Source of the DNA: a virus | DNA length: 46,979 nt | Reading direction: 5' to 3' (one strand) | Virus record (IMG/VR): IMGVR_UViG_3300045996_001067 | Location: 1-46,979 of that record | Shown here: positions 6,949 to 19,072 of the stretch, in pieces | How the letters are laid out: each line of letters starts with the position of its first letter | Position numbering within the stretch: position 1 is the stretch's first letter | Made by a program: the position numbers and the translations under genes | Notes under the pieces: model-generated | What the model saw: the letters and a program-made list of their open reading frames with translations, nothing else | What the model was told of the DNA's origin: nothing | The model's database searches: none

Positions 6949-7187
6949 AACTGTCGCGCTTCGGGGAAGCACTGCTTGCACGGCCGCCCGATCTTGTCGG
7001 CGGTCGCCCGCTTCATCGGGATCGAGTCGTGGCCGGTCTTCGGACGCCAGAGGATGCGGCCGCAGTCGGCGAGCTGCGCGTAGTCCTCGCCCCGCTTCCG
7101 CTGCTTGCGGGAGTGGTAGACGAGATCGGTGTCGAGCAGCGACGTGCCGAGGAACCAGACGACGTCCTCCCACCAGCTCCTAGGCAC
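6945..7187 (-). CDS. Small Cys-containing hypothetical protein
   Basis: An 80-aa protein from GTG 7187, overlapping the upstream nuclease gene by 8 nt. It starts MPRSWWEDVVWFLG and carries one cysteine mid-sequence (LADCGRILW) and a CKQC pair near the end (GRPCKQCFPEARQL), a possible zinc site. It is coupled to the HNH gene by a TTGTGA junction. Function not recognised. Confidence 0.65.
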   Translation of the reverse strand: MPRSWWEDVVWFLGTSLLDTDLVYHSRKQRKRGEDYAQLADCGRILWRPKTGHDSIPMKRATADKIGRPCKQCFPEARQL

Positions 7188-8136
7188 CGGGCACCACCAC
7201 CGTCCGCTCGTGTTCCCAGGCGGGGCAGAACTTCCTGAAGCCGCAGAAGCGGCAGGCCGCTCCGCCCCGGTAGTCCATGAACAGGCCGGACGTCGGCCAG
7301 GCGTTGTCGGGGCCGTAGCGGTGCATGAAGTACTCGACCTGCCCGGCGTAGTCGACCAGCACCTTGCGCGTCCACTCCGCCACGTCGTCCCGGTAGGGCA
7401 GCGCCATTTCCGGGTCGGTGAGCGGCGTCGCGATCGACGGCGTCTTCGCCCGGCTGACCGAGTGGAAGTGCGTCGGCTTGCCGGTCGCGAGGCTGTAGAT
7501 CTGCCCCTGCATCCGCCAGTTGCTGTCCGGCTTCCGCTGCACCTGCTTGCCGGTTTTCAGATCGACGACGTTCCCCTCCTCCTCGACGTCGAGGTAGCCG
7601 ATGAACGGCACGGGGACGCCGGGCACGTACAGGTCGATGCGGCGCTCAGGCGGAGCCACGGGCTGCACGCGCGGGCTGACGGTGTGGTGGTACGCCTGCG
7701 TCATCCGCTCGCCGTCGCGGCGGTAGTCGTCCGGCTCGACGCCGTCGTCCCAGCGGATCTCCTCGACGCCGCCGTCGGCCTCGATCGCCTTCGGCCACGC
7801 CTCGTCGTGGAAGTACTCGACGACCTCCGTCACCGGCAGGTCGGCGTGCGTGACGACCTTCTGGGTGTGCGAGTGGGAGACGGCGGAGTGGACGGCGGAG
7901 CCGAGGGTCAGCGACCCGCCCGGCCGCTCCTTCCGTCCGAGGATGTACCGCTGGCGGTACTGCTCCGGGCAGATCTTCAGCATCCTGATCGAGCTGGCGG
8001 AGAACGAGCGGATGTAGCCGTCGAGCCACGCCTCCGCCGGGGGCTGCTCGATCGGCACCGCCTGCCCCGGAGCCGTCAGCAGGAACGACTCCGGGGGAGG
8101 GGGCAGGACGAACGGGCTGCGCTCGACCTCGGTCAC
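7180..8136 (-). CDS. PD-(D/E)XK nuclease, Cas4/RecB/AddB-like with iron-sulfur cysteines
   Basis: A protein of 318 aa from GTG 8136, in a GTGA overlap with the upstream gene. SASSIRMLKICPEQYRQRY (about 47-65) and GSAVHSAV are the N-terminal motifs of the PDDEXK_1/Cas4 family. GYLDVEEEGNVVDLKTGK holds the active-site Asp, then the D-x-K pair, and is followed by the QGQIYSL helix. C56 with C295, C298 and C304 (CRFCGFRKFC) gives the one-plus-three cysteine pattern that binds a 4Fe-4S cluster in AddB and Cas4. Such phage enzymes resect DNA ends for recombination and replication. No Cas1/Cas2 genes or arrays are nearby, so a CRISPR role is not suggested. Confidence 0.85.
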   Translation of the reverse strand: MTEVERSPFVLPPPPESFLLTAPGQAVPIEQPPAEAWLDGYIRSFSASSIRMLKICPEQYRQRYILGRKERPGGSLTLGSAVHSAVSHSHTQKVVTHADLPVTEVVEYFHDEAWPKAIEADGGVEEIRWDDGVEPDDYRRDGERMTQAYHHTVSPRVQPVAPPERRIDLYVPGVPVPFIGYLDVEEEGNVVDLKTGKQVQRKPDSNWRMQGQIYSLATGKPTHFHSVSRAKTPSIATPLTDPEMALPYRDDVAEWTRKVLVDYAGQVEYFMHRYGPDNAWPTSGLFMDYRGGAACRFCGFRKFCPAWEHERTVVVPGA

Positions 8137-8297
8137 GATCCAGCCTTCAGGTCGAAGCAGCCGGTGACCACGAGGATGTCGCCCGCGTACACCCACTTGC
8201 GCTTGCCGTCGACCTCGACCAGCACCTTGCCGCGCCTGCACTTCAGGAAGCGAACCTCGGTGGCGGTGAAGCCGACGACTGAGGCTTCGCGCAGCAT
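8133..8297 (-). CDS. Small hypothetical beta-rich protein
   Basis: A 54-aa protein from ATG 8297, sharing one base with the upstream TGA (TGATG). The alternating pattern VVGFTATEVRFLKCRRGKVLVEVDGKRKWVYAGDILVV suggests a small beta-barrel or SH3-like fold. It sits between the SSB-like protein and the nuclease and is coupled to both. Function is unknown. Confidence 0.65.
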   Translation of the reverse strand: MLREASVVGFTATEVRFLKCRRGKVLVEVDGKRKWVYAGDILVVTGCFDLKAGS

Positions 8298-9822: not shown

Positions 9823-10019
9823 ACCGGCTTCTCCCGCGGGTCGACGCCGACCTCGGTCAGCGCGATCGCCAGCGCGTCCTCGAACGAGTGGTCACCGTGG
9901 CGGGCGTGTACGAACCAGCCCGACCCCTCCTCCTCACGCTCCCAGCCGGTCAGCTCCAGGAACCTGACGGACGAACGCAGGATCGCCTCCCCGATCACCT
10001 TCTCACGACTGACGGCCAT
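9819..10019 (-). CDS. Small hypothetical protein
   Basis: A 66-aa protein from ATG 10019, with a strong ribosome site (AGAGGAGGAGGA). It overlaps the upstream gene by 17 nt and the downstream gene by 4 nt. Mixed helix/strand sequence such as GWEREEEGSGWFVHARHGDHSFEDALAIAL. Not recognised. Confidence 0.65.
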   Translation of the reverse strand: MAVSREKVIGEAILRSSVRFLELTGWEREEEGSGWFVHARHGDHSFEDALAIALTEVGVDPREKPV

Positions 10020-10419
10020 TCCTCCTCCTCTCGATGTCGGCCTCGCGCGCCGCCAGGCGGGCCTTCGTGTCGGCGAGCAGGCTGCCGCGCTGGTCGGCGG
10101 CGTACAGGGCCAGCTTCTGCTCGTACTCGCGGTCGGACATGCGGATCCCGGCGCCTGCGAGCTGGAGATCCCCGGCGATGTACTGCGCGACCTGCGGCTT
10201 GCCGCGGACGGTCGCCATGTAGCAGGCGGCGATCACCACGTCCTGCGGCACGCCCTCCTCGATCAGCGCCTTGGCGTGGCGGCCGACGATCTCCTTCCAG
10301 CTGGGCGGCATCGTCACGCCCTGCATCTTCGCCGCGTCGACGACGGTTGCGAGGATCCCCTGCGCCGTCAGCGGCTGCGTCGGCTCCAGCTCTCCCTCGT
10401 GGTACGGGACGATTCCCAA
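10003..10419 (-). CDS. Hypothetical helical protein, first gene of the leftward DNA-metabolism operon
   Basis: The best start is TTG 10419 (LGIVPYHEG), 5 nt after GAGGAGGAGG; an upstream TTG at 10443 would put the ribosome site inside the gene. The product is 138 aa and mainly helical: PSWKEIVGRHAKALIEEGVPQDVVIAACYMATVRGKPQVAQYIAGDL, then a charged coiled-coil-like tail. It precedes the loader-like and SSB-like genes, so a part in replication initiation is possible. No family is recognised. Confidence 0.6.
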   Translation of the reverse strand: MGIVPYHEGELEPTQPLTAQGILATVVDAAKMQGVTMPPSWKEIVGRHAKALIEEGVPQDVVIAACYMATVRGKPQVAQYIAGDLQLAGAGIRMSDREYEQKLALYAADQRGSLLADTKARLAAREADIERRRNGRQS

Positions 10420-12056: not shown

Positions 12057-12097
12057 CCTCCTTCGGTTGACTGACGCCGGGCCTCAGACGGCCCGGC
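12057..12097 (-). repeat. Intergenic cassette repeat, copy 1
   Basis: Minus-strand order: hairpin GCCGGGCC/GGCCCGGC (12076-12083 with 12090-12097), CGTCAGTCAACCGAAGGAGG. The TGA of the upstream gene (12084-12086) lies in the hairpin loop. One C of the usual ACCC is missing. Confidence 0.8.
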
Positions 12098-12338
12098 TCG
12101 TGCTGCCTTCCTCGATCCTCATGTGGTAGTCGCAGGTCGTCGACTGCATCACGCCGTCGACGCCGACGACCTTCCAGACGGCGTAGCGGTACTCCATCCG
12201 GGGCGGGATCCGGCAGTGGCAGTCCAGGACGCGCTCGGACTTCGTGTGCCGGATCTCCGCCCGGTAGAACGCGACTCGACCCGCGGCCGCGCCTCGATCG
12301 AGGGCGGCCTGGGCCGCCTCGATCTCCTCGTTGGTCAT
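12084..12338 (-). CDS. Hypothetical protein
   Basis: An 84-aa protein from ATG 12338, three bases after the upstream stop (TGAGCGATG), so it is translationally coupled and is the one array gene here without its own repeat. A short helical start (TNEEIEAAQAALDRGAAAG) leads into CHCRIPPRMEYRYAVWKVVGVDGVMQSTTCDYH, with three cysteines and histidines that could bind metal. Not recognised. Confidence 0.6.
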   Translation of the reverse strand: MTNEEIEAAQAALDRGAAAGRVAFYRAEIRHTKSERVLDCHCRIPPRMEYRYAVWKVVGVDGVMQSTTCDYHMRIEEGSTSRAV

Positions 12339-12341
12339 CGC

Positions 12342-12578
12342 TCAGGAGAGCCGCGGGACGTTCAAGGCGGCCTCGATCGCCTCGGCCTCCGACATCCCCT
12401 TCCCGACCAGCGTCTTCAGCTGCTCCGGCTTGAACCGGAAGACCCAGCTGCCGTCCTCCCGGTAGATCGCCGCCGTGAAGAACGACGGGGGCGGGGCGAG
12501 CGGGCGGGTCGGGTCGGTGCCGGAGACGCTCTCGGGGGCGCCGTCGGGGATCGGGCGGAGCGTGTACTTCGGGTGCAT
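12342..12578 (-). CDS. Hypothetical protein
   Basis: A 78-aa protein from ATG 12578, with the repeat-borne ribosome site. The Pro-rich N-terminal half is followed by FFTAAIYREDGSWVFRFKPEQLKTLVGKGMSEAEAIEAAL, a strand pair and helix. Function unknown; organised with the following gene as a coupled pair. Confidence 0.6.
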   Translation of the reverse strand: MHPKYTLRPIPDGAPESVSGTDPTRPLAPPPSFFTAAIYREDGSWVFRFKPEQLKTLVGKGMSEAEAIEAALNVPRLS

Positions 12579-12583
12579 CTGTG

Positions 12584-12630
12584 CCTCCTTCGGGTTGACT
12601 GACGGGGGACGGCACCGCAGTACCGTCCCC
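12584..12630 (-). repeat. Intergenic cassette repeat, copy 2
   Basis: Hairpin GGGGACGG/CCGTCCCC (12605-12612 with 12623-12630), then CGTCAGTCAACCC and GAAGGAGG before ATG 12578. The stop of the upstream DUF932-like gene lies 9 nt before the hairpin in transcription order. Confidence 0.8.
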
Positions 12631-12639
12631 CTGGTGCGA

Positions 12640-13719
12640 CTACGCCGTCGCGAGCTGCGCCCACTCGCGGGCGGGCAGGCTGGCGAGCTGCCAGCCGAGG
12701 CCCTCCAGCTCGGCCTGGCGGTCGAAGTCGTCGACCTCCTTCGCCTGCGCGGTGACCGCGTTCAGCAGTCCCCACTGGCTCAGGTCGCCGCCCTCGACGA
12801 GGTTCCGAAGCACGCCCTCGCGCTCGTCCTCGGTGAGGCTGAACCGCGAGGCGAGCGTCTCGGTCGCGGCGATCGGGGCCTGGATCTTCTCGCCGTGAAC
12901 CGTCTCGGCGAGCTGCGCCACGATCTCCTCGAACCTGACCTCGCTGAGGACGGACTTCACCGTGTCACGAGCGACGAGCCAGAAGGCGTTGTCGTCCGCC
13001 TCGATCGTCTCGTCGGTGAAGTGCGTCTCGTCCTCGATCCGCTTTCCGACGTGCCGGGCCGCGACCGAGTGGTCGGGCACCGTCATGCCGTTGATGCAGA
13101 TCAGGCGCAGGATGAACGGCGAGATCGAGAGCATCCCGCTGCCGACCTCGCTGTTCTTGATCTCGATCCCGGCCTGCACCGCGTCGCCGACCTTGATCTC
13201 GCGCTCCAGGCCCGGCAGGACGGCCCGCATGTAGAAGCGGGTGTCCGTGAGCTGCGCCTGGTGGAACGTGAGGCCGGGGATGTCGTCGAACACCGGGAAG
13301 ATCCGGCGCGCGATCTCGATGTTGTCCATCCGCTTGTAGCGGTCGGACAGCCAGGCCCGGCCGACGCCGGAGCCTCCCTCGACGGTCGGCTTGAAGCCGC
13401 GCACGAGGCGCCGCTCCGGCTGCTCGTGCAGCCAGTGGTCGACGTTCCGGGCCAGCAGGCCCGGCGCCTCCGTGAGCATCCGGTCGAAGTACCGCTTGGG
13501 GATGCCCAGGTCGGTCGCGACCTGGCCGCGTGCGTGGCTGTTCAGCTGGAACGCGGCGACGCCGTTCGGGGTGTCGACGTTCAGGTCGACGACGTTGCCG
13601 CCGACGCCTGCCTCGACGACCGCCGACATGCGGCGGGTGTCCGCCACGACGTCCAGCTTCGCCTCGTCCTGCTTGACGATCTCCGCGAACATCTGCTCGC
13701 GGGTGAGAGTGGTAGCCAT
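12640..13719 (-). CDS. DUF932-like phage/plasmid protein
   Basis: A 359-aa protein from ATG 13719, the largest in the array. FQLNSHARGQVATDLGIPKRYFDRML, AWLSDRYKRMDNIEIARRI and the closing helical half fit the DUF932 (phage/plasmid-like protein) family, found in many phages and plasmids with no firmly assigned biochemical role. The composition is ordinary and the frame complete. DUF932 proteins are often expressed early in accessory regions, which agrees with its position behind the leftward promoter. Confidence 0.7.
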   Translation of the reverse strand: MATTLTREQMFAEIVKQDEAKLDVVADTRRMSAVVEAGVGGNVVDLNVDTPNGVAAFQLNSHARGQVATDLGIPKRYFDRMLTEAPGLLARNVDHWLHEQPERRLVRGFKPTVEGGSGVGRAWLSDRYKRMDNIEIARRIFPVFDDIPGLTFHQAQLTDTRFYMRAVLPGLEREIKVGDAVQAGIEIKNSEVGSGMLSISPFILRLICINGMTVPDHSVAARHVGKRIEDETHFTDETIEADDNAFWLVARDTVKSVLSEVRFEEIVAQLAETVHGEKIQAPIAATETLASRFSLTEDEREGVLRNLVEGGDLSQWGLLNAVTAQAKEVDDFDRQAELEGLGWQLASLPAREWAQLATA

Positions 13720-13727
13720 GGGAGCTA

Positions 13728-13750
13728 CCTCCTTTCCGGGTTGACTAACG
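13728..13750 (-). repeat. Intergenic cassette repeat, copy 3 (no hairpin)
   Basis: Variant CGTTAGTCAACCC followed by GGAAAGGAGG. The TAG of the HTH gene lies inside the core (CGTTAG). No clear hairpin arm is visible on the upstream side, so the core survives without the hairpin. Confidence 0.7.
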
Positions 13751-13933
13751 CAGCTTCCCGGCCGCCTGGAGATCTGCGACGGCCCGGTCGACCTGGGCGG
13801 CGTCGAAGATCATCCCGCAGCGTAGGTTCGCCACCGGCTCCGGCCAGAGGCCGCGACGCAGGAAGCGCAGGACGCGGTGGCGGGGGATGCCGTGCTTCTC
13901 GTGGATCTCGTGGGTGCCGACGATGTTGGTCAT
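13745..13933 (-). CDS. Small helix-turn-helix DNA-binding protein (MerR/excisionase-like)
   Basis: A 62-aa protein. ATG 13933 is favoured over GTG 13942 because a TACAGT box ends 7 nt before it and no ribosome site is present. TNIVGTHEIHEKHGIPRHRVLRFLRRGLWPEPVANL matches the winged HTH of MerR-like and excisionase-like proteins, followed by the second element GMIFDAAQVDRAVADL. With no integrase in the window, a transcriptional regulator is more likely than an excisionase. It is the only array gene with its own promoter-like box instead of the repeat ribosome site. Confidence 0.75.
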   Translation of the reverse strand: MTNIVGTHEIHEKHGIPRHRVLRFLRRGLWPEPVANLRCGMIFDAAQVDRAVADLQAAGKLR

Positions 13934-13940
13934 GCCAGGC

Positions 13941-13949
13941 ACTGTAACA
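13941..13949 (-). promoter_or_regulatory. Candidate leaderless promoter of the HTH gene
   Basis: Minus-strand TGTTACAGT (extended -10), then 7 nt (GCCTGGC), then ATG 13933. It closely resembles TGTTACACT upstream of the SSB-like gene. Confidence 0.55.
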
Positions 13950-13951
13950 GT

Positions 13952-13978
13952 GGTGACTGACGGCCCCTCGCGGGGCCG
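13952..13978 (-). repeat. Intergenic cassette repeat, partial copy 4 (core and hairpin, no ribosome site)
   Basis: Hairpin CGGCCCC/GGGGCCG (13961-13967 with 13972-13978) closed by GCGA, a GNRA-type tetraloop in the leftward transcript, followed by CGTCAGTCACC but no GAAGGAGG. The preceding gene ends TAGCACCCGG. Confidence 0.75.
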
Positions 13979-13982
13979 GGTG

Positions 13983-14261
13983 CTACTCGACGATCGCCTC
14001 CGGCTTCGGCATCTTGAACTCGACGCCCGTGTAGGCGTGCAGCTCCTCCTTCAGCTCGTTGACGACCACGTACAGATCCCAGGCGTCGTGCGGGCTGCCC
14101 TCGTCGTTGCTCGTCTCCCAGGTGATCACGATCACCGTCGGGACGCTGTTCGGGTTCGTGCCGAGGGCGGGGTGCGCGACGCACCGAATCTTCTCGACGA
14201 CCTCGTCGAGCGTGCCCAGCGGCAAGTCGGCGGGGATCTCGACGATCTGCTCGTACTTCAT
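13983..14261 (-). CDS. Hypothetical protein
   Basis: A 92-aa protein from ATG 14261 with the repeat ribosome site; a longer frame to 14348 runs through the repeat and hairpin. MKYEQIVEIPADLPLGTLDEVVEKIRCVAHPA, then VPTVIVITWETSNDEGSPHDAWDLYVVVNELKEELHAYTG, has an alternating beta/alpha pattern typical of a small folded protein. Not recognised. Confidence 0.65.
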   Translation of the reverse strand: MKYEQIVEIPADLPLGTLDEVVEKIRCVAHPALGTNPNSVPTVIVITWETSNDEGSPHDAWDLYVVVNELKEELHAYTGVEFKMPKPEAIVE

Positions 14262-14265
14262 GGTG

Positions 14266-14308
14266 CCTCCTTCGGGTTGACTGACGAGCAGGGCTAGTCG
14301 CCCTGCTC
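14266..14308 (-). repeat. Intergenic cassette repeat, copy 5
   Basis: Hairpin GAGCAGGGC/GCCCTGCTC (14286-14294 with 14300-14308) with the TAG of the upstream gene at the loop (14294-14296), then CGTCAGTCAACCC and GAAGGAGG. The stem is built partly from the coding end of the upstream gene. Confidence 0.8.
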
Positions 14309-14449
14309 CTCGATCTCGCGCAGGTGCGAGCGCAGTGCCCGCTCCCACTCGCGATCGCTGATGTCGGACACGATCAGCATCGCGATGCCGACGACTCCGC
14401 CGACGGTCATCAGGATCGCCAGGGCGGTCGCGAGGACGTAGGTGATCAT
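14294..14449 (-). CDS. Small single-pass membrane protein
   Basis: A 51-aa protein starting at ATG 14449, in an ATGA overlap with the HTH gene upstream. MITYVLATALAILMTVGGVVGIAMLIV is one transmembrane helix; the rest (SDISDREWERALRSHLREIEEQGD) is a charged cytoplasmic helix. Translational coupling to a LuxR-type HTH gene and the in-hairpin stop support a real gene. Function unknown. Confidence 0.7.
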   Translation of the reverse strand: MITYVLATALAILMTVGGVVGIAMLIVSDISDREWERALRSHLREIEEQGD

Positions 14450-14655
14450 GCGACCTCCAGCCGGACGATCCCGGCCCGGACGGCGGCGGCGGTCAGGCCG
14501 CGGATCCCGTCCGCTCCCAGCTTGCGGCAGACGATCTCCAGGTGCCCCTTCACCGTCCGCTCGCTGATGCCCAGCGCGTCGGCGGTGAGGGGCACGGTGC
14601 CCGCCCGGATGTATGCGACCAGCGTCTCGCGCTGGCGCTCGGTCAGCTCCTGCAT
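14446..14655 (-). CDS. Stand-alone LuxR/GerE-type helix-turn-helix regulator
   Basis: A 69-aa protein from ATG 14655. ELTERQRETLVAYIRAGTVPLTADALGISERTVKGHLEIVCRKLG is a clear GerE/LuxR HTH: the E-L-T-x-R-E start, the recognition helix SERTVKGHLE and the KLG end. There is no receiver or ligand domain, so it is a bare DNA-binding domain, like small phage regulators. It lies in one transcription unit with the membrane protein downstream and probably controls phage or host promoters. Confidence 0.8.
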   Translation of the reverse strand: MQELTERQRETLVAYIRAGTVPLTADALGISERTVKGHLEIVCRKLGADGIRGLTAAAVRAGIVRLEVA

Positions 14656-14659
14656 GGTG

Positions 14660-14696
14660 CCTCCATTCGTGGGTGACTGACGCCCCCGAAGGGGCG
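14660..14696 (-). repeat. Intergenic cassette repeat, copy 6
   Basis: Hairpin CGCCCC-TTCG-GGGGCG (14681-14686 with 14691-14696) gives a UUCG tetraloop closed by C-G in the transcript, then CGTCAGTCACCC and a weaker GAATGGAGG ribosome site. Confidence 0.8.
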
Positions 14697-14701
14697 GTGG
14701 A

Positions 14702-15481
14702 TCAGCTGCCGAGCAGCTCGATGAACACGTGCCCGCGCATCCGCTCGACGTTGAAGCCGACGTAGACCGCGGCGTCCTTTCGCACCCAGCCGCGGCTGGC
14801 GTGGTAGTGCAGGTTCAGCTTCACGTCCGCGTCGTAAGGACTCCGCGGCTCGCCCTTCCAGAAGACGAGATCGTCGGGTGCGTACGAGTCGTCGTCGGCG
14901 GGGTAGTCGAAGGCGTGGCTGAAGCCACGCTGCTTCATCGAGCTGATCACGCCGTTGAGCGTGTTCAGCAGCTCAGGCTCGCGGGCGCGGGCCAGCTTCA
15001 GCTCCAGCTTCGCCTGCTCCTCCCGCTGGATCTTCGCCCGCACGCTGTCGGCCTTCTCCTGCTCGTACTCGGCCCAGGTGGAGACGAAGCAGCCGCCGTT
15101 CTCCAGCGCGACCCGCGTCACCATCCGCGGCTCGACGCCCTCGCCTTCGGCCTCGTACTCCTCGACCGGCACGAACTCGCTGTAGCCGCGCCCGTAGCCG
15201 GTCGTGACGTACTCGCCGGACGGGGAGATCTTCCCCCGCTTCACCGGCTCCGCCAGCTCGACGATCATGCCGCGCAGCACCAGGCGGCGCTCCTGCGGAT
15301 TGTCGTGGCGGCTGTAGCTGAAGCGGGCGCCGCCGACGACCTTGAACGTCTCGACGATCTCGCCGCCGATCTCGACCAGCTTCGCCTTCACCGGCTCGCT
15401 CCTGCGGTAGCTGGAACGGGCCTCGGACGGGCTGAAGAAGACGGCGTACTCCTCGCCGACCTTCAGGTCTGACTTCCTCAT
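14702..15481 (-). CDS. Hypothetical protein
   Basis: A 259-aa protein from ATG 15481. The N-terminal half is beta-rich (VGEEYAVFFSPSEARSSYRRSEPVKAKLVEIGGEIVETFKVV), then a helical, Lys/Glu-rich middle (AEYEQEKADSVRAKIQREEQAKLELKLARAREPELLN) and a final strand-rich part. It may be a barrel domain plus coiled coil. No motif is recognised; the complete frame with array signals on both sides supports expression. Confidence 0.65.
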   Translation of the reverse strand: MRKSDLKVGEEYAVFFSPSEARSSYRRSEPVKAKLVEIGGEIVETFKVVGGARFSYSRHDNPQERRLVLRGMIVELAEPVKRGKISPSGEYVTTGYGRGYSEFVPVEEYEAEGEGVEPRMVTRVALENGGCFVSTWAEYEQEKADSVRAKIQREEQAKLELKLARAREPELLNTLNGVISSMKQRGFSHAFDYPADDDSYAPDDLVFWKGEPRSPYDADVKLNLHYHASRGWVRKDAAVYVGFNVERMRGHVFIELLGS

Positions 15482-15487
15482 GGGAAG

Positions 15488-15526
15488 CCTCCTCTCTGTG
15501 GGTTGACTGACGCCCCCGGAGGGGCG
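15488..15526 (-). repeat. Intergenic cassette repeat, copy 7
   Basis: Hairpin CGCCCC-TCCG-GGGGCG (15511-15516 with 15521-15526), a UNCG-type loop, then CGTCAGTCAACCC and a longer spacer before GAGGAGGC. The upstream gene ends in the conserved TAGCACC. Confidence 0.8.
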
Positions 15527-15531
15527 TGGTG

Positions 15532-15843
15532 CTACCAGCGTCCAGCGTCGCCGGGCAGGGCCTTCAGGTCGCCCGGCGCGTAGCCGGTGCCGACGGGGTC
15601 GTAGGGGCCGAAGTCCTCGATCGGCTGCTCGCCGTCGGGCGCCTGGAGGCCGACCAGCGGCCGGGCGTACTCGTCGAGCGGCCCGTGCGCCAGGAACCGC
15701 TCCAGGATGCTGAGGAAGCGGTCGCCGACGATGCCGACGTCCGGGGCGCGGACGAGCTGCGCGTGCAGCTGCCCGGCCGTCTCTCGGTCGATCTCGACGT
15801 TGAGGATGTCCCGGTCGAACGGGGTGAGCGAAGCGTGAAGCAT
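15532..15843 (-). CDS. Hypothetical protein
   Basis: A 103-aa protein from ATG 15843. MLHASLTPFDRDILNVEIDRETAGQLHAQLVRAPDVGIVGDRFLSILERFL is folded-looking; the C-terminal part is Pro/Gly/Asp-rich. It ends in TAG followed by the conserved CACC. Not recognised. Confidence 0.65.
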   Translation of the reverse strand: MLHASLTPFDRDILNVEIDRETAGQLHAQLVRAPDVGIVGDRFLSILERFLAHGPLDEYARPLVGLQAPDGEQPIEDFGPYDPVGTGYAPGDLKALPGDAGRW

Positions 15844-15847
15844 GGCT

Positions 15848-15892
15848 CCTCCTTCGTGGGTGACTGACGGCCCGGCCTCCAGCAACCGGGCC
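15848..15892 (-). repeat. Intergenic cassette repeat, copy 8
   Basis: Hairpin GGCCCGG/CCGGGCC (15869-15875 with 15886-15892) with a 10-nt loop, then CGTCAGTCACCC and GAAGGAGG. Confidence 0.8.
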
Positions 15893-15904
15893 TGCGTATC
15901 TCGT

Positions 15905-16168
15905 TCAGCCGTTCGTGTCGCTCACCCCCTCGCAGTCGCGGGTGACGCGGAGCCTGCCTGCGCTCCAGACGCGGCCGTCGGTGAAGACGCGGCACGCCAG
16001 GCGCTGCCCGCAGCCTGGGCAGTGGGCGGCGGCGGTGAGGCCGTCGGCGTCCGACCCGTAGCTCCAGGTCGGCGCGTGGCCGCGCTGCCTCGCCAGCTCG
16101 TCCTCGATCGAGACGATGCGGCCCAGCTCGCGCTCGTTGTGGATCACCTGCTCCTCAGTGGCAGACAT
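15905..16168 (-). CDS. Small zinc-knuckle protein
   Basis: An 87-aa protein from ATG 16168. A coiled-coil-like start (SATEEQVIHNERELGRIVSIEDELARQRG) is followed by HCPGCGQRLACRVF and a later cysteine (VTRDCEG), a possible zinc site. Unknown role. Confidence 0.65.
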   Translation of the reverse strand: MSATEEQVIHNERELGRIVSIEDELARQRGHAPTWSYGSDADGLTAAAHCPGCGQRLACRVFTDGRVWSAGRLRVTRDCEGVSDTNG

Positions 16169-16173
16169 CGGAT

Positions 16174-16208
16174 CCTCCTTCGGGTTGACTGACGCCCCCG
16201 AAGGGGCG
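16174..16208 (-). repeat. Intergenic cassette repeat, copy 9
   Basis: Hairpin CGCCCC-TTCG-GGGGCG (16193-16198 with 16203-16208), UUCG loop, then CGTCAGTCAACCC and GAAGGAGG. It follows TAGCACC of the upstream gene and is nearly identical to copy 6. Confidence 0.85.
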
Positions 16209-16212
16209 GGTG

Positions 16213-16491
16213 CTACTCGGCGACCGTGAGCAGGTCGAGGATGATCGCGTGCGCCTCGCCGATCGGGATCGAGCGGCCCTGCTGTCCGTCGTGGACGGCG
16301 ATGCTGAAGCGGCCGTCGGTGGCGTAGTCGAGGATGGTCGACAGCGCGCGTGCCGCCCGCAGCGTCTGGGTGGCCTGCGGGGCGGCGTCGTGCGAGACGC
16401 CGAGGGCGTTTCGGACGTCCCTCCGTGCTTCCTTGCGGGCCGTGGCTGAGTGGCGTCGTGCGAGCGTCTCTGCGTCCTTGCGCGTGAGCAT
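16213..16491 (-). CDS. Hypothetical protein
   Basis: A 92-aa protein from ATG 16491. A basic helical N-terminus (MLTRKDAETLARRHSATARKEARRDVRNALG) precedes a mixed domain (ALSTILDYATDGRFSIAVHDGQQGRSIPIGEAHAIILDLL). Basic charge suggests nucleic-acid contact, but no motif is recognised. Confidence 0.65.
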   Translation of the reverse strand: MLTRKDAETLARRHSATARKEARRDVRNALGVSHDAAPQATQTLRAARALSTILDYATDGRFSIAVHDGQQGRSIPIGEAHAIILDLLTVAE

Positions 16492-16497
16492 GATGCT

Positions 16498-16539
16498 CCT
16501 CCTTGGGTTGACTGACGCCCCTGGTGTCTCCCAGGGGCG
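16498..16539 (-). repeat. Intergenic cassette repeat, copy 10
   Basis: Hairpin CGCCCCTGG/CCAGGGGCG (16516-16524 with 16531-16539), a 9-bp stem with a 6-nt loop, then CGTCAGTCAACCC and AAGGAGG. Confidence 0.8.
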
Positions 16540-16545
16540 GCGGCG

Positions 16546-16812
16546 CTACCGCCTCGATGCGATCTCGCGGTCGACGGCCTCGTAGGCGATGTCCGAGACG
16601 TCGGTCGCCTTCACGTTCGCCCAGCGGTCGCTGTTCAGCAGCCGGGCCGCCACGACCTCCGTAGCCTCCAGCCGCAGTCCGTCGACGTCGTCGCCGCACG
16701 TGCTGGCGAGCTGCTCGACGGCCTCCGTCGCGAAGCTGGCGATCCGGTCGGCCCACGCTGTCTCCAGGCCGGTGACGTTCTGCTCGTAGGCGATCTCTCG
16801 ATCGGTGAGCAT
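16546..16812 (-). CDS. Hypothetical protein
   Basis: An 88-aa protein from ATG 16812, mostly helical and acidic: LTDREIAYEQNVTGLETAWADRIASFATEAVEQLASTCGDDVDGLRLEATEVVAARLL. It ends in the conserved-type stop TAGCGCC. Not recognised. Confidence 0.65.
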   Translation of the reverse strand: MLTDREIAYEQNVTGLETAWADRIASFATEAVEQLASTCGDDVDGLRLEATEVVAARLLNSDRWANVKATDVSDIAYEAVDREIASRR

Positions 16813-16816
16813 GGCT

Positions 16817-16886
16817 CCTCCTTCGGGTTGACTGACGTCCCCGGCGCGCAGGTGCAGCGCGGGGGACTGACGCCCCGTGAGGGGCG
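16817..16886 (-). repeat. Intergenic cassette repeat, copy 11, with a duplicated hairpin
   Basis: Two hairpins in tandem: CGCCCC/GGGGCG (16871-16876 with 16881-16886) followed in transcription order by CGTCAGTC and a second hairpin GTCCCC/GGGGAC (16837-16842 with 16862-16867, plus inner GCGC pairs), then CGTCAGTCAACCC and GAAGGAGG. It looks like two units fused after loss of the gene between them. Confidence 0.75.
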
Positions 16887-16889
16887 GTG

Positions 16890-17180
16890 CTACAGGCTGC
16901 GCTCCCGGACGCGGTGGGCGTACGGGGCTGGCCGCTTCACGCCGACGAACCCACGCTCGCGCAGGTGCCGCTCGGCGTCCTCGGCGCCGTTGTAGGCGCG
17001 GTACGCCTCGACGCGCTCGGTGTGGAAGTAGCCGCCGTCCGGGACGCGCCGGATGTCGACCCACGTCTCGCCGATCGAGTCGACGTAGACGCGCGCCTCG
17101 TTGCCGTTCGGGTGGGCGATCGTGAACAGGTCGCCGCTCCAGGCCCAGTGCGTGCCGAGGTATGTCAGGGTGACGGGCAT
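16890..17180 (-). CDS. Hypothetical protein
   Basis: A 96-aa protein from ATG 17180. MPVTLTYLGTHWAWSGDLFTIAHPNGNEARVYVDSIGETWVDIRRV is beta-rich; the second half (VEAYRAYNGAEDAERHLRERGFVG) is helical. It ends TAGCACC. Not recognised. Confidence 0.65.
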   Translation of the reverse strand: MPVTLTYLGTHWAWSGDLFTIAHPNGNEARVYVDSIGETWVDIRRVPDGGYFHTERVEAYRAYNGAEDAERHLRERGFVGVKRPAPYAHRVRERSL

Positions 17181-17184
17181 GTCT

Positions 17185-17218
17185 CCTCCTTGGGTTGACT
17201 GACGGCCCCGTGGGGCCG
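17185..17218 (-). repeat. Intergenic cassette repeat, copy 12
   Basis: Compact hairpin CGGCCCC/GGGGCCG (17203-17209 with 17212-17218), then CGTCAGTCAACCC and AAGGAGG. Preceded by TAGCACC. Confidence 0.8.
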
Positions 17219-17223
17219 TGGTG

Positions 17224-17400
17224 CTAGCTGAAGCTGACGCGCAGGCCGTAGCTCTGAGCGATGACGGCGGCCGCCTCGCGGTTCGTCAGGCCCGCGGCCT
17301 TCGCGAACGTCTGGACGGCAAGCCTGGCCTGCTCGGATGCCAGGGCCGGGTACTGCGCGCTCGTGAGTGTGTGGTTCTCGACGATGACGGGGGAAAGCAT
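17224..17400 (-). CDS. Small hypothetical protein
   Basis: A 58-aa protein from ATG 17400 with array signals at both ends (ribosome site upstream; stop TAGCACC and hairpin downstream), which is the main reason for calling it. Sequence MLSPVIVENHTLTSAQYPAL ... FAKAAGLTNREAAAVIAQSYGLRVSFS, helical, with a faint HTH-like look (LTNREAAAVIAQSYG). Function unknown. Confidence 0.65.
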   Translation of the reverse strand: MLSPVIVENHTLTSAQYPALASEQARLAVQTFAKAAGLTNREAAAVIAQSYGLRVSFS

Positions 17401-17404
17401 GGCT

Positions 17405-17442
17405 CCTCCTCTGGTGGGTGACTGACGCCCGCCGGAGCGGGC
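17405..17442 (-). repeat. Intergenic cassette repeat, copy 13
   Basis: Hairpin GCCCGC-TCCG-GCGGGC (17427-17432 with 17437-17442), UNCG-type loop, then CGTCAGTCACCC and AGAGGAGG. Follows TAGCAC of the upstream gene. Confidence 0.8.
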
Positions 17443-17448
17443 CTCGTG

Positions 17449-17802
17449 CTACGCGGCGGCTGCTTCGAGCCACGGTGCGACCATGCCGTCCGGGACGCGG
17501 CGGCGGGTCTGCTCGTAGAAGTCGGCGCGGTTCTTGTAGTAGGTGGCGTGCATGTCGGGGTCGATCTCGTACAGGGCGGCGAGCCAGAGGCCCCAGTCGT
17601 CCCAGGTGGCGGCGTAGTCGTAGCCTGCGCCGGTCTGGCCGCTGTTCTTCTTCCGGGTGTGCCGTGCGCCCAGGCCGGTCAAGCTGACCTCGAACGCCCG
17701 CGCCCGCTTCCTGCTCCCATGCTCCATGACCTCGGCGTCGACGTCGCGCGGCAGGGCCGCGAAGATGTCGGTGCGAGTGATGATGTCGGAGTGGAGACGC
17801 AT
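17449..17802 (-). CDS. Conserved actinophage-type hypothetical protein
   Basis: A 117-aa protein from ATG 17802, the promoter-proximal gene of the array. MRLHSDIITRTDIFAALPRDVDAEVMEHGSRKRARAFEVSLTG, then YAATWDDWGLWLAALYEIDPDMHATYYKNRADFYEQT, recalls a small protein widespread in actinophages and mobile elements: H-S start, HGSRxRxxAFEV, YAATxDEWG. Its function is unknown to me. Confidence 0.7.
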   Translation of the reverse strand: MRLHSDIITRTDIFAALPRDVDAEVMEHGSRKRARAFEVSLTGLGARHTRKKNSGQTGAGYDYAATWDDWGLWLAALYEIDPDMHATYYKNRADFYEQTRRRVPDGMVAPWLEAAAA

Positions 17803-17809
17803 GGTGGTT

Positions 17810-17854
17810 CCTCCTTCGGTGGGTTGACTGACGCCCGGTTAGTCAGGCCGGGCG
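17810..17854 (-). repeat. Intergenic cassette repeat, copy 14 (first in the transcript)
   Basis: Hairpin CGCCCGG/CCGGGCG (17832-17838 with 17848-17854) in the leader, then CGTCAGTCAACCC, a short insertion, and GAAGGAGG. No gene ends at this hairpin, so the hairpin is not only a gene-end terminator here. Confidence 0.8.
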
Positions 17855-18169
17855 GATCGTGCGCGCTCCTCGGTGCCCATCGGCGGCCGAGGTTGGTGAC
17901 GGGGGCGCTGCTCCCGCCGTTTCGGTGGTTCCCAGGGCCGACTGCTCGCGATCGTCCACCGTTAGTAGGCAGTTGCCTTCTAACCCGTGTCCGGTCTTCA
18001 GAGTCACCGATCGCTCGGCCCTTGAATCTCCTCCCGCTCCCCCCGCTCGTCACGAGGCCGGAGAGACGTACTGGCCCGTTGCCCGGCGATCGCTCCTCGC
18101 GCCCCGGTGAACCATTCTGTCCCCGTCCGCCCCTCCCGATTCAGCTGCTCGTTCGGTGCGGCATGGGGG
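17855..18169 (-). other. Untranslated leader of the leftward array
   Basis: About 315 nt between the leftward promoter and the first cassette. No frame has both a start with a ribosome site and coding-like composition. It contains the palindrome at 17961-17984. It could carry regulatory RNA structure. Confidence 0.5.
17961..17984. promoter_or_regulatory. Near-perfect palindrome, candidate operator
   Basis: GTTAGTAGGCA and TGCCTTCTAAC are inverted repeats matching at 10 of 11 positions around a central GT. The site is AT-richer than its surroundings and lies about 180 nt downstream of the leftward start point. Confidence 0.5.
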
Positions 18170-18198
18170 ACAATAGACCCGGCCGAATCAGCCGTCAA
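18170..18198 (-). promoter_or_regulatory. Strong leftward sigma70-type promoter
   Basis: Minus strand: TTGACG (18193-18198), a 17-nt spacer, TATTGT (18170-18175). It is the best promoter for the array. The 12-nt stretch CCACTTGACGGC over its -35 is shared with the rightward promoter at 19201. Confidence 0.75.
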
Positions 18199-18454: not shown

Positions 18455-19072
18455 GTGAGCGACCACCCGCACGAGCTGGACGACGGCGCCGCTAGCGACC
18501 GGCCGGTCTTCGACCTGGCGTACGCGCTCGACGCCGTCCCCGTCCATGTCACCGTCTCGCCCGACGTCAACCTCGACTCGGAGGATCCCGCACTCGTGGA
18601 GGAGACGGGACGCCGACGGTGCGTAGCGGTGAAGGCGGCAGGCGGCCGGTGCAGCTCGGCGCCGGTTCACTCGCTGATCACGTGCAGCATCCACGGCGGC
18701 CTCGTAGACCCCAGCGAAGGGGGGAGGGCAGTAGCCAGGATCAGGAGGGAAGCCCAGCAGAGCGAGGAGGAGAGGGGGCGGTTGGCCCGCCTCTCCAGCC
18801 GCGACGTGATTCGTGAGGCCCTGGCGGAACGGCACACTCAGCTTCGGGCGACCGTCCACACCCTGCTCGACGCTGCTGCTGCGGGGGATCTCCAGGCTGC
18901 GAAGCTGGTGGGGCCGTACCTGAACCAGGCGCACGGCCTGCCCACTGAGCGGGTGGAGGTCACCACGCCCTCTAGTGGCGCTGATCTCGACGGCATGTCG
19001 ACCGCCGACTTGGAGAAGCTCGTGCGAGAGCAGCGGGCATCCCTTCGGGCCGTCGACGACCAGGCCGCCTGA
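18455..19072 (+). CDS. Possible terminase small subunit (zinc-finger HGG type)
   Basis: A 205-aa protein from GTG 18455, 4 nt after the previous stop. RRRCVAVKAAGGRCSSAPVHSLITCSIHGG matches the Cys/His knuckle with a terminal HGG seen at the start of many actinophage small terminases. Next come a helical block (REALAERHTQLRATVHTLLDAAAAGDLQAAKLV) and HGLPTERVEVTTPSS, followed by an acidic helix, also reminiscent of small terminases. Against this, the gene lies 5.5 kb upstream of the large subunit. A generic zinc-finger DNA-binding protein is the alternative. Confidence 0.45.
   Translation: MSDHPHELDDGAASDRPVFDLAYALDAVPVHVTVSPDVNLDSEDPALVEETGRRRCVAVKAAGGRCSSAPVHSLITCSIHGGLVDPSEGGRAVARIRREAQQSEEERGRLARLSSRDVIREALAERHTQLRATVHTLLDAAAAGDLQAAKLVGPYLNQAHGLPTERVEVTTPSSGADLDGMSTADLEKLVREQRASLRAVDDQAA

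Follow-up and report, generated by a model that had tools for sequence, protein, structure and literature searches.

Gene-start units of the minus-strand operon

The stretch analysed, referred to below as the window, was the IMG/VR virus record IMGVR_UViG_3300045996_001067 over its full 46,979 bases. On its minus strand, from 17.83 down to 12.07 kb, lay an operon whose genes are small and for the most part unrelated; nearly each of them was preceded by a recurring unit, and upstream of the first unit a structured leader RNA was found whose arms are complementary to the units. Within a unit the order was a hairpin, GTCAGTCA, ACCC, AAGGAGG and then the start codon. The original prediction of 14 such units at gene starts was borne out, and one accessory copy was added to them. 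All units are on the minus strand; an arrow or a slash marks the predicted cut discussed below.

17825-17832, minus: unit 1, in cis at the leader end, GUC↓AGUCA; predicted cut 17830/17829
17419-17426, minus: unit; predicted cut 17424/17423
17196-17203, minus: unit; predicted cut 17201/17200
16864-16871, minus: accessory site of the double unit, GUC↓AGUCC; predicted cut 16869/16868
16829-16836, minus: unit; predicted cut 16834/16833
16509-16516, minus: unit; predicted cut 16514/16513
16186-16193, minus: unit; predicted cut 16191/16190
15861-15868, minus: unit; predicted cut 15866/15865
15504-15511, minus: unit; predicted cut 15509/15508
14674-14681, minus: unit; predicted cut 14679/14678
14278-14285, minus: unit whose hairpin loop holds the upstream stop codon; predicted cut 14283/14282
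13954-13961, minus: unit ahead of a helix-turn-helix (HTH) gene; predicted cut 13959/13958
13742-13749, minus: unit GUU↓AGUCA, base 17 being U, as the hammerhead rule permits; predicted cut 13747/13746
12596-12603, minus: unit; predicted cut 12601/12600
12068-12075, minus: unit whose hairpin loop holds the upstream stop codon; predicted cut 12073/12072

The core CGTCAGTCA was exact at 13 gene starts. The remaining gene-start unit carried CGTTAGTCA (13742-13750), deviating solely at base 17 in hammerhead numbering, and the additional copy CGTCAGTCC (16864-16872) was part of a double unit. Taken alone, the core 9-mer with one mismatch was not rarer than chance (21 found against 15.9 expected). 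Followed by AAGGAGG, it occurred nine times on the minus strand and was absent from both the plus strand and a reversed control. The minus strand had 17 copies of GTH↓AGTC, of which 15 lay inside the operon, and the plus strand had two.

A fully paired hairpin was present in 15/15 units, its 3' arm stopping 1-4 nt ahead of the GUC↓A junction. Its bases had been described as variable with pairing kept, and indeed 13 distinct 3' arms, all paired, occurred among the 15 units; when arms were exchanged between units, pairing fell from 100% to a mean of 56%. The tetraloop that had been assigned to these hairpins was seen in about half of the units only, loops ranging from 4 to 19 nt. A ribosome site, likewise expected in every unit, was generally present but no clear one was seen in the unit at 13958, and the hairpin at 13746 was weak. 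In two units the upstream stop codon sat within the hairpin loop. The U-tract of an intrinsic terminator was absent after the unit hairpins, and GUCAGUCAACCC came next instead.

Several observations concerned the units themselves. Doubled units (16829-16872, minus strand, and also L132 and L135) consisted of a core, a second hairpin and then either a second core or ACCC with a ribosome site. In the first-unit hairpin of group A (17833-17850 of the window, minus strand, and G001-G005), TGACT in the loop or bulge was complementary to the unit's own core; it could rival the leader arm and so delay or regulate the first cut, and it was not kept in other groups. A pseudoknot between this loop and the core, limited to the first unit, was rejected as an explanation, the loop motif being missing in G010/G011 and outside group A. 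The units of group C (L328, L330) had a hairpin on either side of CUCC↓AGGC, the first closed by GGAGG/CCUCC; this CCUCC could alternatively pair with the ribosome site, and the two pairings might work as a switch. A lone GTC↓AGTCG site lay beyond the operon at 10003-10021 (minus strand) and was possibly a chance match or a weak target, and the replication block at 6-12 kb held no units.

Related phages

The units of the window were also present in five other viral contigs. Phages with these units had terminase, portal and capsid genes in common at 57-83% identity, and the genes between their units mostly differed. The original prediction was to fall if the core proved no better conserved than its flanks in relatives; it was found to be far more conserved. 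Several further members carried units with a different core. A wider search was performed with the terminase and the neighbouring gene at 18455-19072 as queries: 292 stretches had a related terminase, of which the best 80 were kept, and the neighbouring gene retrieved L328 and L330. The resulting sample comprised 20 related uncultivated phages, among which eight recognition types (below) are the independent observations, since phages within one type are kin.

A close cultured relative was not found, the best identities being ~30% for the terminase and ~28% for the capsid. A scan of 84,980 genomes for host or prophage matches gave four single matches, probably due to chance, and broad pattern scans likewise returned mostly chance matches. 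In G010, the early region overlapped at two contig ends (the end of L311 and the start of L309).

The structured leader RNA

When six phages were compared upstream of the first unit, a conserved stretch of ~200 nt was found from the promoter to that unit. A conserved structured leader occupied this place in 20/20 phages that could be examined. In the window it occupied ~17.83-18.16 kb of the minus strand, downstream of the proposed operon promoter and ahead of the first unit. This leader, the key to the system, had been missed in the original prediction, whose interpretation is only partly supported. The following elements were assigned to it.

18170-18198, minus: promoter-like TTGACG-17 bp-TATTGT, the sole promoter proposed for the operon, read from the sequence
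17830-18162, minus: leader RNA; homologous covarying RNA in 20 phages; the 5' end is approximate and placed from the promoter-like sequence
17830-18023, minus: conserved structured domain of the leader (homology and covariation), followed by the first unit
18015-18021, minus: helix A, 5' strand GGGCCGA; partner 17935-17941
18009-18014, minus: helix B, 5' strand GCGATC; partner 17948-17953
18002-18006, minus: arm 1, UGACU, complementary to AGUCA of every unit (stem I)
17995-18001, minus: putative catalytic strand 1, CUGAAGA (C3-A9); (C/G)UGAN(G/C)A in 20/20 leaders
17985-17994, minus: hairpin D, CCG-GACA-CGG, adjoining A9; covariation in 20 leaders
17961-17984, minus: hairpin E, adjoining D; covariation
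17956-17960, minus: stem II, 5' strand GGUGG; partner 17924-17928
17948-17953, minus: helix B, 3' strand GAUCGC; partner 18009-18014
17935-17941, minus: helix A, 3' strand UCGGCCC; partner 18015-18021
17924-17928, minus: stem II, 3' strand CCACC, adjoining GAA; partner 17956-17960
17921-17923, minus: putative catalytic strand 2, GAA (G12-A14); 20/20 leaders
17918-17920, minus: arm 2, ACG (15.1-15.3), complementary to CGU of every unit (stem III)

Numbered as a hammerhead, the leader runs from arm 1 through C3-U4-G5-A6-N7-G8-A9, hairpins D and E and the stem II 5' strand, and continues with the 3' strands of helices B and A, the stem II 3' strand, G12-A13-A14 and arm 2. A unit contributes positions 16.3-16.2-16.1-17↓1.1-1.5. 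In the window, C-G-U-C↓A-G-U-C-A was set against the leader ACG that follows GAA and the UGACU that precedes CUGAAGA, and the C before the cut stayed unpaired, as in a hammerhead. The core, D, E and stem II were joined essentially without unpaired bases, that is, as a perfect four-way junction.

The sequences of helices A and B, hairpins D and E and stem II differed in nearly every phage, with pairing kept. Stem II was 99% paired, against a mean of 70% and a maximum of 84% when its strands were shuffled among phages (5,000 shuffles). The stem II pair adjoining GAA was G-C in all leaders, and C3-G8 was swapped to G3-C8 in three of the 20 (G002-G004).

The leader had no match among the Rfam covariance models, the hammerhead models included, at permissive settings too, and on this ground group I intron, RNase P, tmRNA and T-box identities were discarded. 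A hammerhead reading was itself dropped at first, with C10.1 and C11.1 unpaired, and was revived once stem II had been located further on, past hairpins D and E. Outside group A, most leaders (L398-L405, L328, L330, L129) carried the anti-Shine-Dalgarno-like CCUCCUCCU just upstream of helix A; it could lengthen pairing into the ribosome site of a bound unit. The G010 leader was followed by an inserted sequence when compared with the nearly identical phage G011.

Matching of leaders and units

In each member with a different core, the leader sequence immediately ahead of CTGANGA was reverse-complementary to the core of the same phage. Eight recognition types were distinguished by the last 4 nt of arm 1 and by 15.1-15.2: GACT/AC, GCCT/GA, GACC/AG, GACT/AG, GGAA/AC, GACC/TG, GATC/AG and TGAC/AC. 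When the gene-start sites that fit each leader were counted in each phage, a clean diagonal resulted, units fitting their own leader and hardly any other; in G000, for example, 14 matching sites were at gene starts and one was antisense. The identity assignment of leaders to units ranked first among 40,320 permutations, with a sum of 79 against a mean of 11.9.

The same relation was recovered blind to the leader. Among 1,024 pentamers ranked by enrichment before ribosome sites, the complement of arm 1 ranked 1-4 in 13 phages out of 20, and 10th in another. In the remaining six, either only four arm nucleotides pair or sites beyond the search window of the test are used; the GGAA, AGCC and UUGAC arms required a 4-nt match or a wider search window. 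Leader sequences were also predicted from units before the leader was located. The core GATCA of L387 called for TGATC before CTGA, and TTGATC-CTGATGA was found. Units of the form GTC↓TTCC (L353, L365, L378) called for GGAA before CUGANGA and for CGAAAC further on, and both were found in 3/3 phages.

The unpaired base 17 was C in 194, U in 13 and G in three of 210 units, and never A; the resulting C/U share (207/210) fits the hammerhead rule of H at position 17 with C preferred. Pairing extended to 16.3 in 177 of 207 units and to 16.4 in 65, and on the other side to 1.5 in 144 and to 1.6 in 62. Where arm 1 was UUGACC and the units GGUCAA, 1.6 was paired almost always; a longer arm thus goes with a longer conserved core. 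Position 15.1 was A in 17, G in two and U in one of the 20 leaders. The 15.1-16.1 pair was A-U, G-C or U-A and the 15.2-16.2 pair C-G, G-C or A-U: G022/G023 had G at 15.1 and units with C at 16.1, and G033 had a U15.1-A16.1 variant with matching CAC↓GGUC units. The distance from the cut to the start codon clustered at ~20-27 nt, group C standing at ~41-47 nt.

The statement that ribosome binding does not explain the core was correct. A pairing of the core with 16S rRNA was rejected, the complementary segments being in the wrong order. Three roles had been offered for the core, of which RNA processing is supported by the evidence; protein binding and recombination joints are not supported, since the core covaries base by base with the leader RNA.

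Proposed ribozyme and processing of the early transcript

The units are very probably the targets of a hammerhead-like ribozyme contained in the leader, which, as judged from the conserved and covarying sequences, would process the early polycistronic RNA into monocistronic mRNAs. The leader is called hammerhead-like because it is not a standard hammerhead by the criterion of Eckert et al.

It is proposed that the leader arms UGACU and ACG pair with C-G-U-C↓A-G-U-C-A ahead of each early gene and that cutting at GUC↓A would split the early transcript between genes. Hammerhead cleavage leaves a cyclic phosphate and a 5'-OH (PMC6155905). The upstream product would end in the hairpin and GUC with a 2',3'-cyclic phosphate and would be shielded from 3' exonucleases. 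The downstream product would begin with a 5'-OH, usually 20-27 nt ahead of the start codon and just before the ribosome site. A hairpin at each new 3' end together with a short 5' leader may then yield stable, translatable monocistronic mRNAs. In group C the second hairpin after the cut would cap the new 5' end too, consistent with the same logic. The leader terminates in a unit and could release itself. Cleavage itself is inferred, as are its action on other RNA molecules besides the leader's own transcript and the purpose of making stable monocistronic mRNAs.

Beyond this, we lean towards a natural, multiple-turnover, trans-acting hammerhead-type ribozyme that would serve as a dedicated phage mRNA-processing enzyme. 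It would free itself at the first unit, diffuse and cut all early transcripts, its specificity having been rewritten, in at least eight forms, together with its dispersed targets.

Several points weigh against a hammerhead-like ribozyme in the leader. Every leader had hairpins D and E as an insertion that separates A9 from stem II. Full matches were seen in only six of the ~12 G010 units, and the hairpins at the base of the units would compete with stem III. The 15.1-16.1 pair of G022/G023 was G-C and the triplet UCC, which performs poorly in minimal hammerheads. All sequences came from uncultivated phages, and cleavage is predicted from sequence. Moreover, stem II starts directly after CUGANGA in all known hammerhead alignments (PMC10085705), an arrangement that the leaders do not have.

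The four-way junction could retain the hammerhead geometry. In hammerheads, stems I and II lie side by side and touch at their far ends; helix B links the far ends of stems I and II and would replace this usual tertiary contact.

Alternative explanations

The alternative that survives best, although improbable, is that the leader acts without catalysis, as an antisense or scaffold RNA which pairs with the units and controls translation or mRNA stability, its hammerhead-like core being a relic. The strongly supported leader-unit pairing would agree with it, as would the position of the sites a short way upstream of ribosome sites, and a relic origin would suit the inserted hairpins. However, mere antisense pairing requires neither an intact core, nor compensated changes, nor a limit on base 17. 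CUGANGA and GAA were intact in 20/20 leaders although the surrounding helices changed sequence completely, C3-G8 and 15.1-16.1 changed only with compensation, and the unpaired base 17 was still limited to C/U.

It is more doubtful still that the hairpin and core form a site for a phage or host RNA-binding or processing protein, such as a nuclease or an antitermination factor, with the leader as a further binding site. A hairpin adjoining a single-stranded core that does not vary is a typical arrangement in protein-RNA sites, and HK022 put and similar RNAs do function as leaders. Nevertheless, the core changed from AGUCA to GGUCA, GAUCA, AGGC or UUCC and its reverse complement in the leader changed along with it, which is not expected of a protein site, and no common early protein of RNA-binding type was found.

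Ordinary terminators combined with a strong ribosome site are scarcely credible, and so are recombination joints at which genes would be exchanged: the units do separate unrelated genes and the hairpins do come after stop codons, yet no U-tract follows the hairpins, little homology is on offer for joints because hairpin sequences vary between units, and the leader complementarity that neither function needs covaries with the units. A DNA-level operator or recombination site was discarded in view of variable spacing and conserved RNA pairing. The TAG stops before units were considered as a special feature and set aside, being equally common in structural genes (9/17).

Comparison with known systems

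The proposed leader-unit complex resembles a bimolecular hammerhead, or the natural types I-III, in its CUGANGA and GAA strands, G10.1-C11.1 at stem II, C3-G8, the 15.1-16.1 pair, C/U at position 17 of the cleavage triplet and short stems I and III flanking the cut. Covariation of C3/G8, to U3-A8, has been reported in active natural hammerheads, and so has a variant with U15.1-A16.1 (PMC3088659). In contrast to hammerheads, the substrate strand here comes from about 5-17 dispersed sites rather than one site within the ribozyme, hairpins D and E stand between A9 and stem II, and helices A/B form a pseudoknot with stem II.

In prophages, Perreault et al. (2011) described clustered hammerheads, each complete and self-cleaving, that flank phage genes, and they proposed processing into gene-length mRNAs (PMC3088659). 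The proposed purpose, cutting long phage transcripts between genes, is the same, but each site there has a complete ribozyme, whereas one would serve all sites here. In the discontinuous Clec2 hammerhead of mammalian mRNAs, as cited in PMC6155905, ribozyme and substrate strands are also far apart in sequence, with a single substrate in the same 3' untranslated region (UTR) as against many intergenic sites here.

RNase P RNA is likewise a natural ribozyme acting on sites in other RNAs, where it recognises a hairpin with a short single-stranded tail; its core and structure are unrelated to the leader and its substrates are others. The start-associated sequence (SAS) of cluster K mycobacteriophages, a 13-bp GGGATAGGAGCCC that includes the ribosome site, and the extended form (ESAS), whose repeats were concluded by the authors not to act as RNA hairpins (PMC3203893), also place a short conserved sequence and an inverted repeat ahead of many non-structural phage genes. 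They had been judged a different thing from the units, and this holds: the units lack GGGATAGGAGCCC at the ribosome site and differ in sequence and position, and ESAS repeats are conserved in sequence without RNA covariation, whereas the unit hairpins vary while staying paired. By the leader-unit test, no hammerhead-like partner leader was found for the SAS of phage TM4.

Significance of the proposed system

The standard natural ribozyme that cuts other RNAs is RNase P, and small nucleolytic ribozymes are, to our knowledge, found in nature almost only as self-cleaving elements. A natural ribozyme that would serve many separate target sites in the manner proposed appears undescribed; the literature covered, from which subscription journals were largely absent, yielded no account of a natural hammerhead that acts in trans on dispersed targets. 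The novelty would lie in the system, one ribozyme with many dispersed natural targets, and the proposed cleavage chemistry is of a known kind. A small-ribozyme core would here work as an enzyme on about 5-17 targets per genome in a lineage of about 290 terminase-detected contigs, and would be an RNA enzyme co-evolving with many substrates at once. Natural trans-acting hammerheads become a directly testable question. The eight recognition pairs may supply a natural solution for orthogonal operon processing, and the inserted perfect four-way junction with a helix bridging stems I and II offers new structural ideas for a short-arm hammerhead.

Other genes of the window

Divergent from the leader, the gene at 18455-19072 (plus strand) was present in eight phages checked (the window, G001-G005 and G010/G011); its protein had a C-x-G-x-R-C...C-x2-H pattern and no match in Pfam or PHROG. 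Within the operon, a small LuxR-type HTH protein (Pfam GerE) was encoded at 14446-14655 (minus strand); the gene at 13745-13933 (minus strand) specified an HTH/excisionase-like protein that had no match in Pfam. The DUF932/phrog_1362 protein gene at 12640-13719 (minus strand) stood behind a unit in G004 as well. A PDDEXK exonuclease gene at 7180-8241 (minus strand) was conserved across the lineage.

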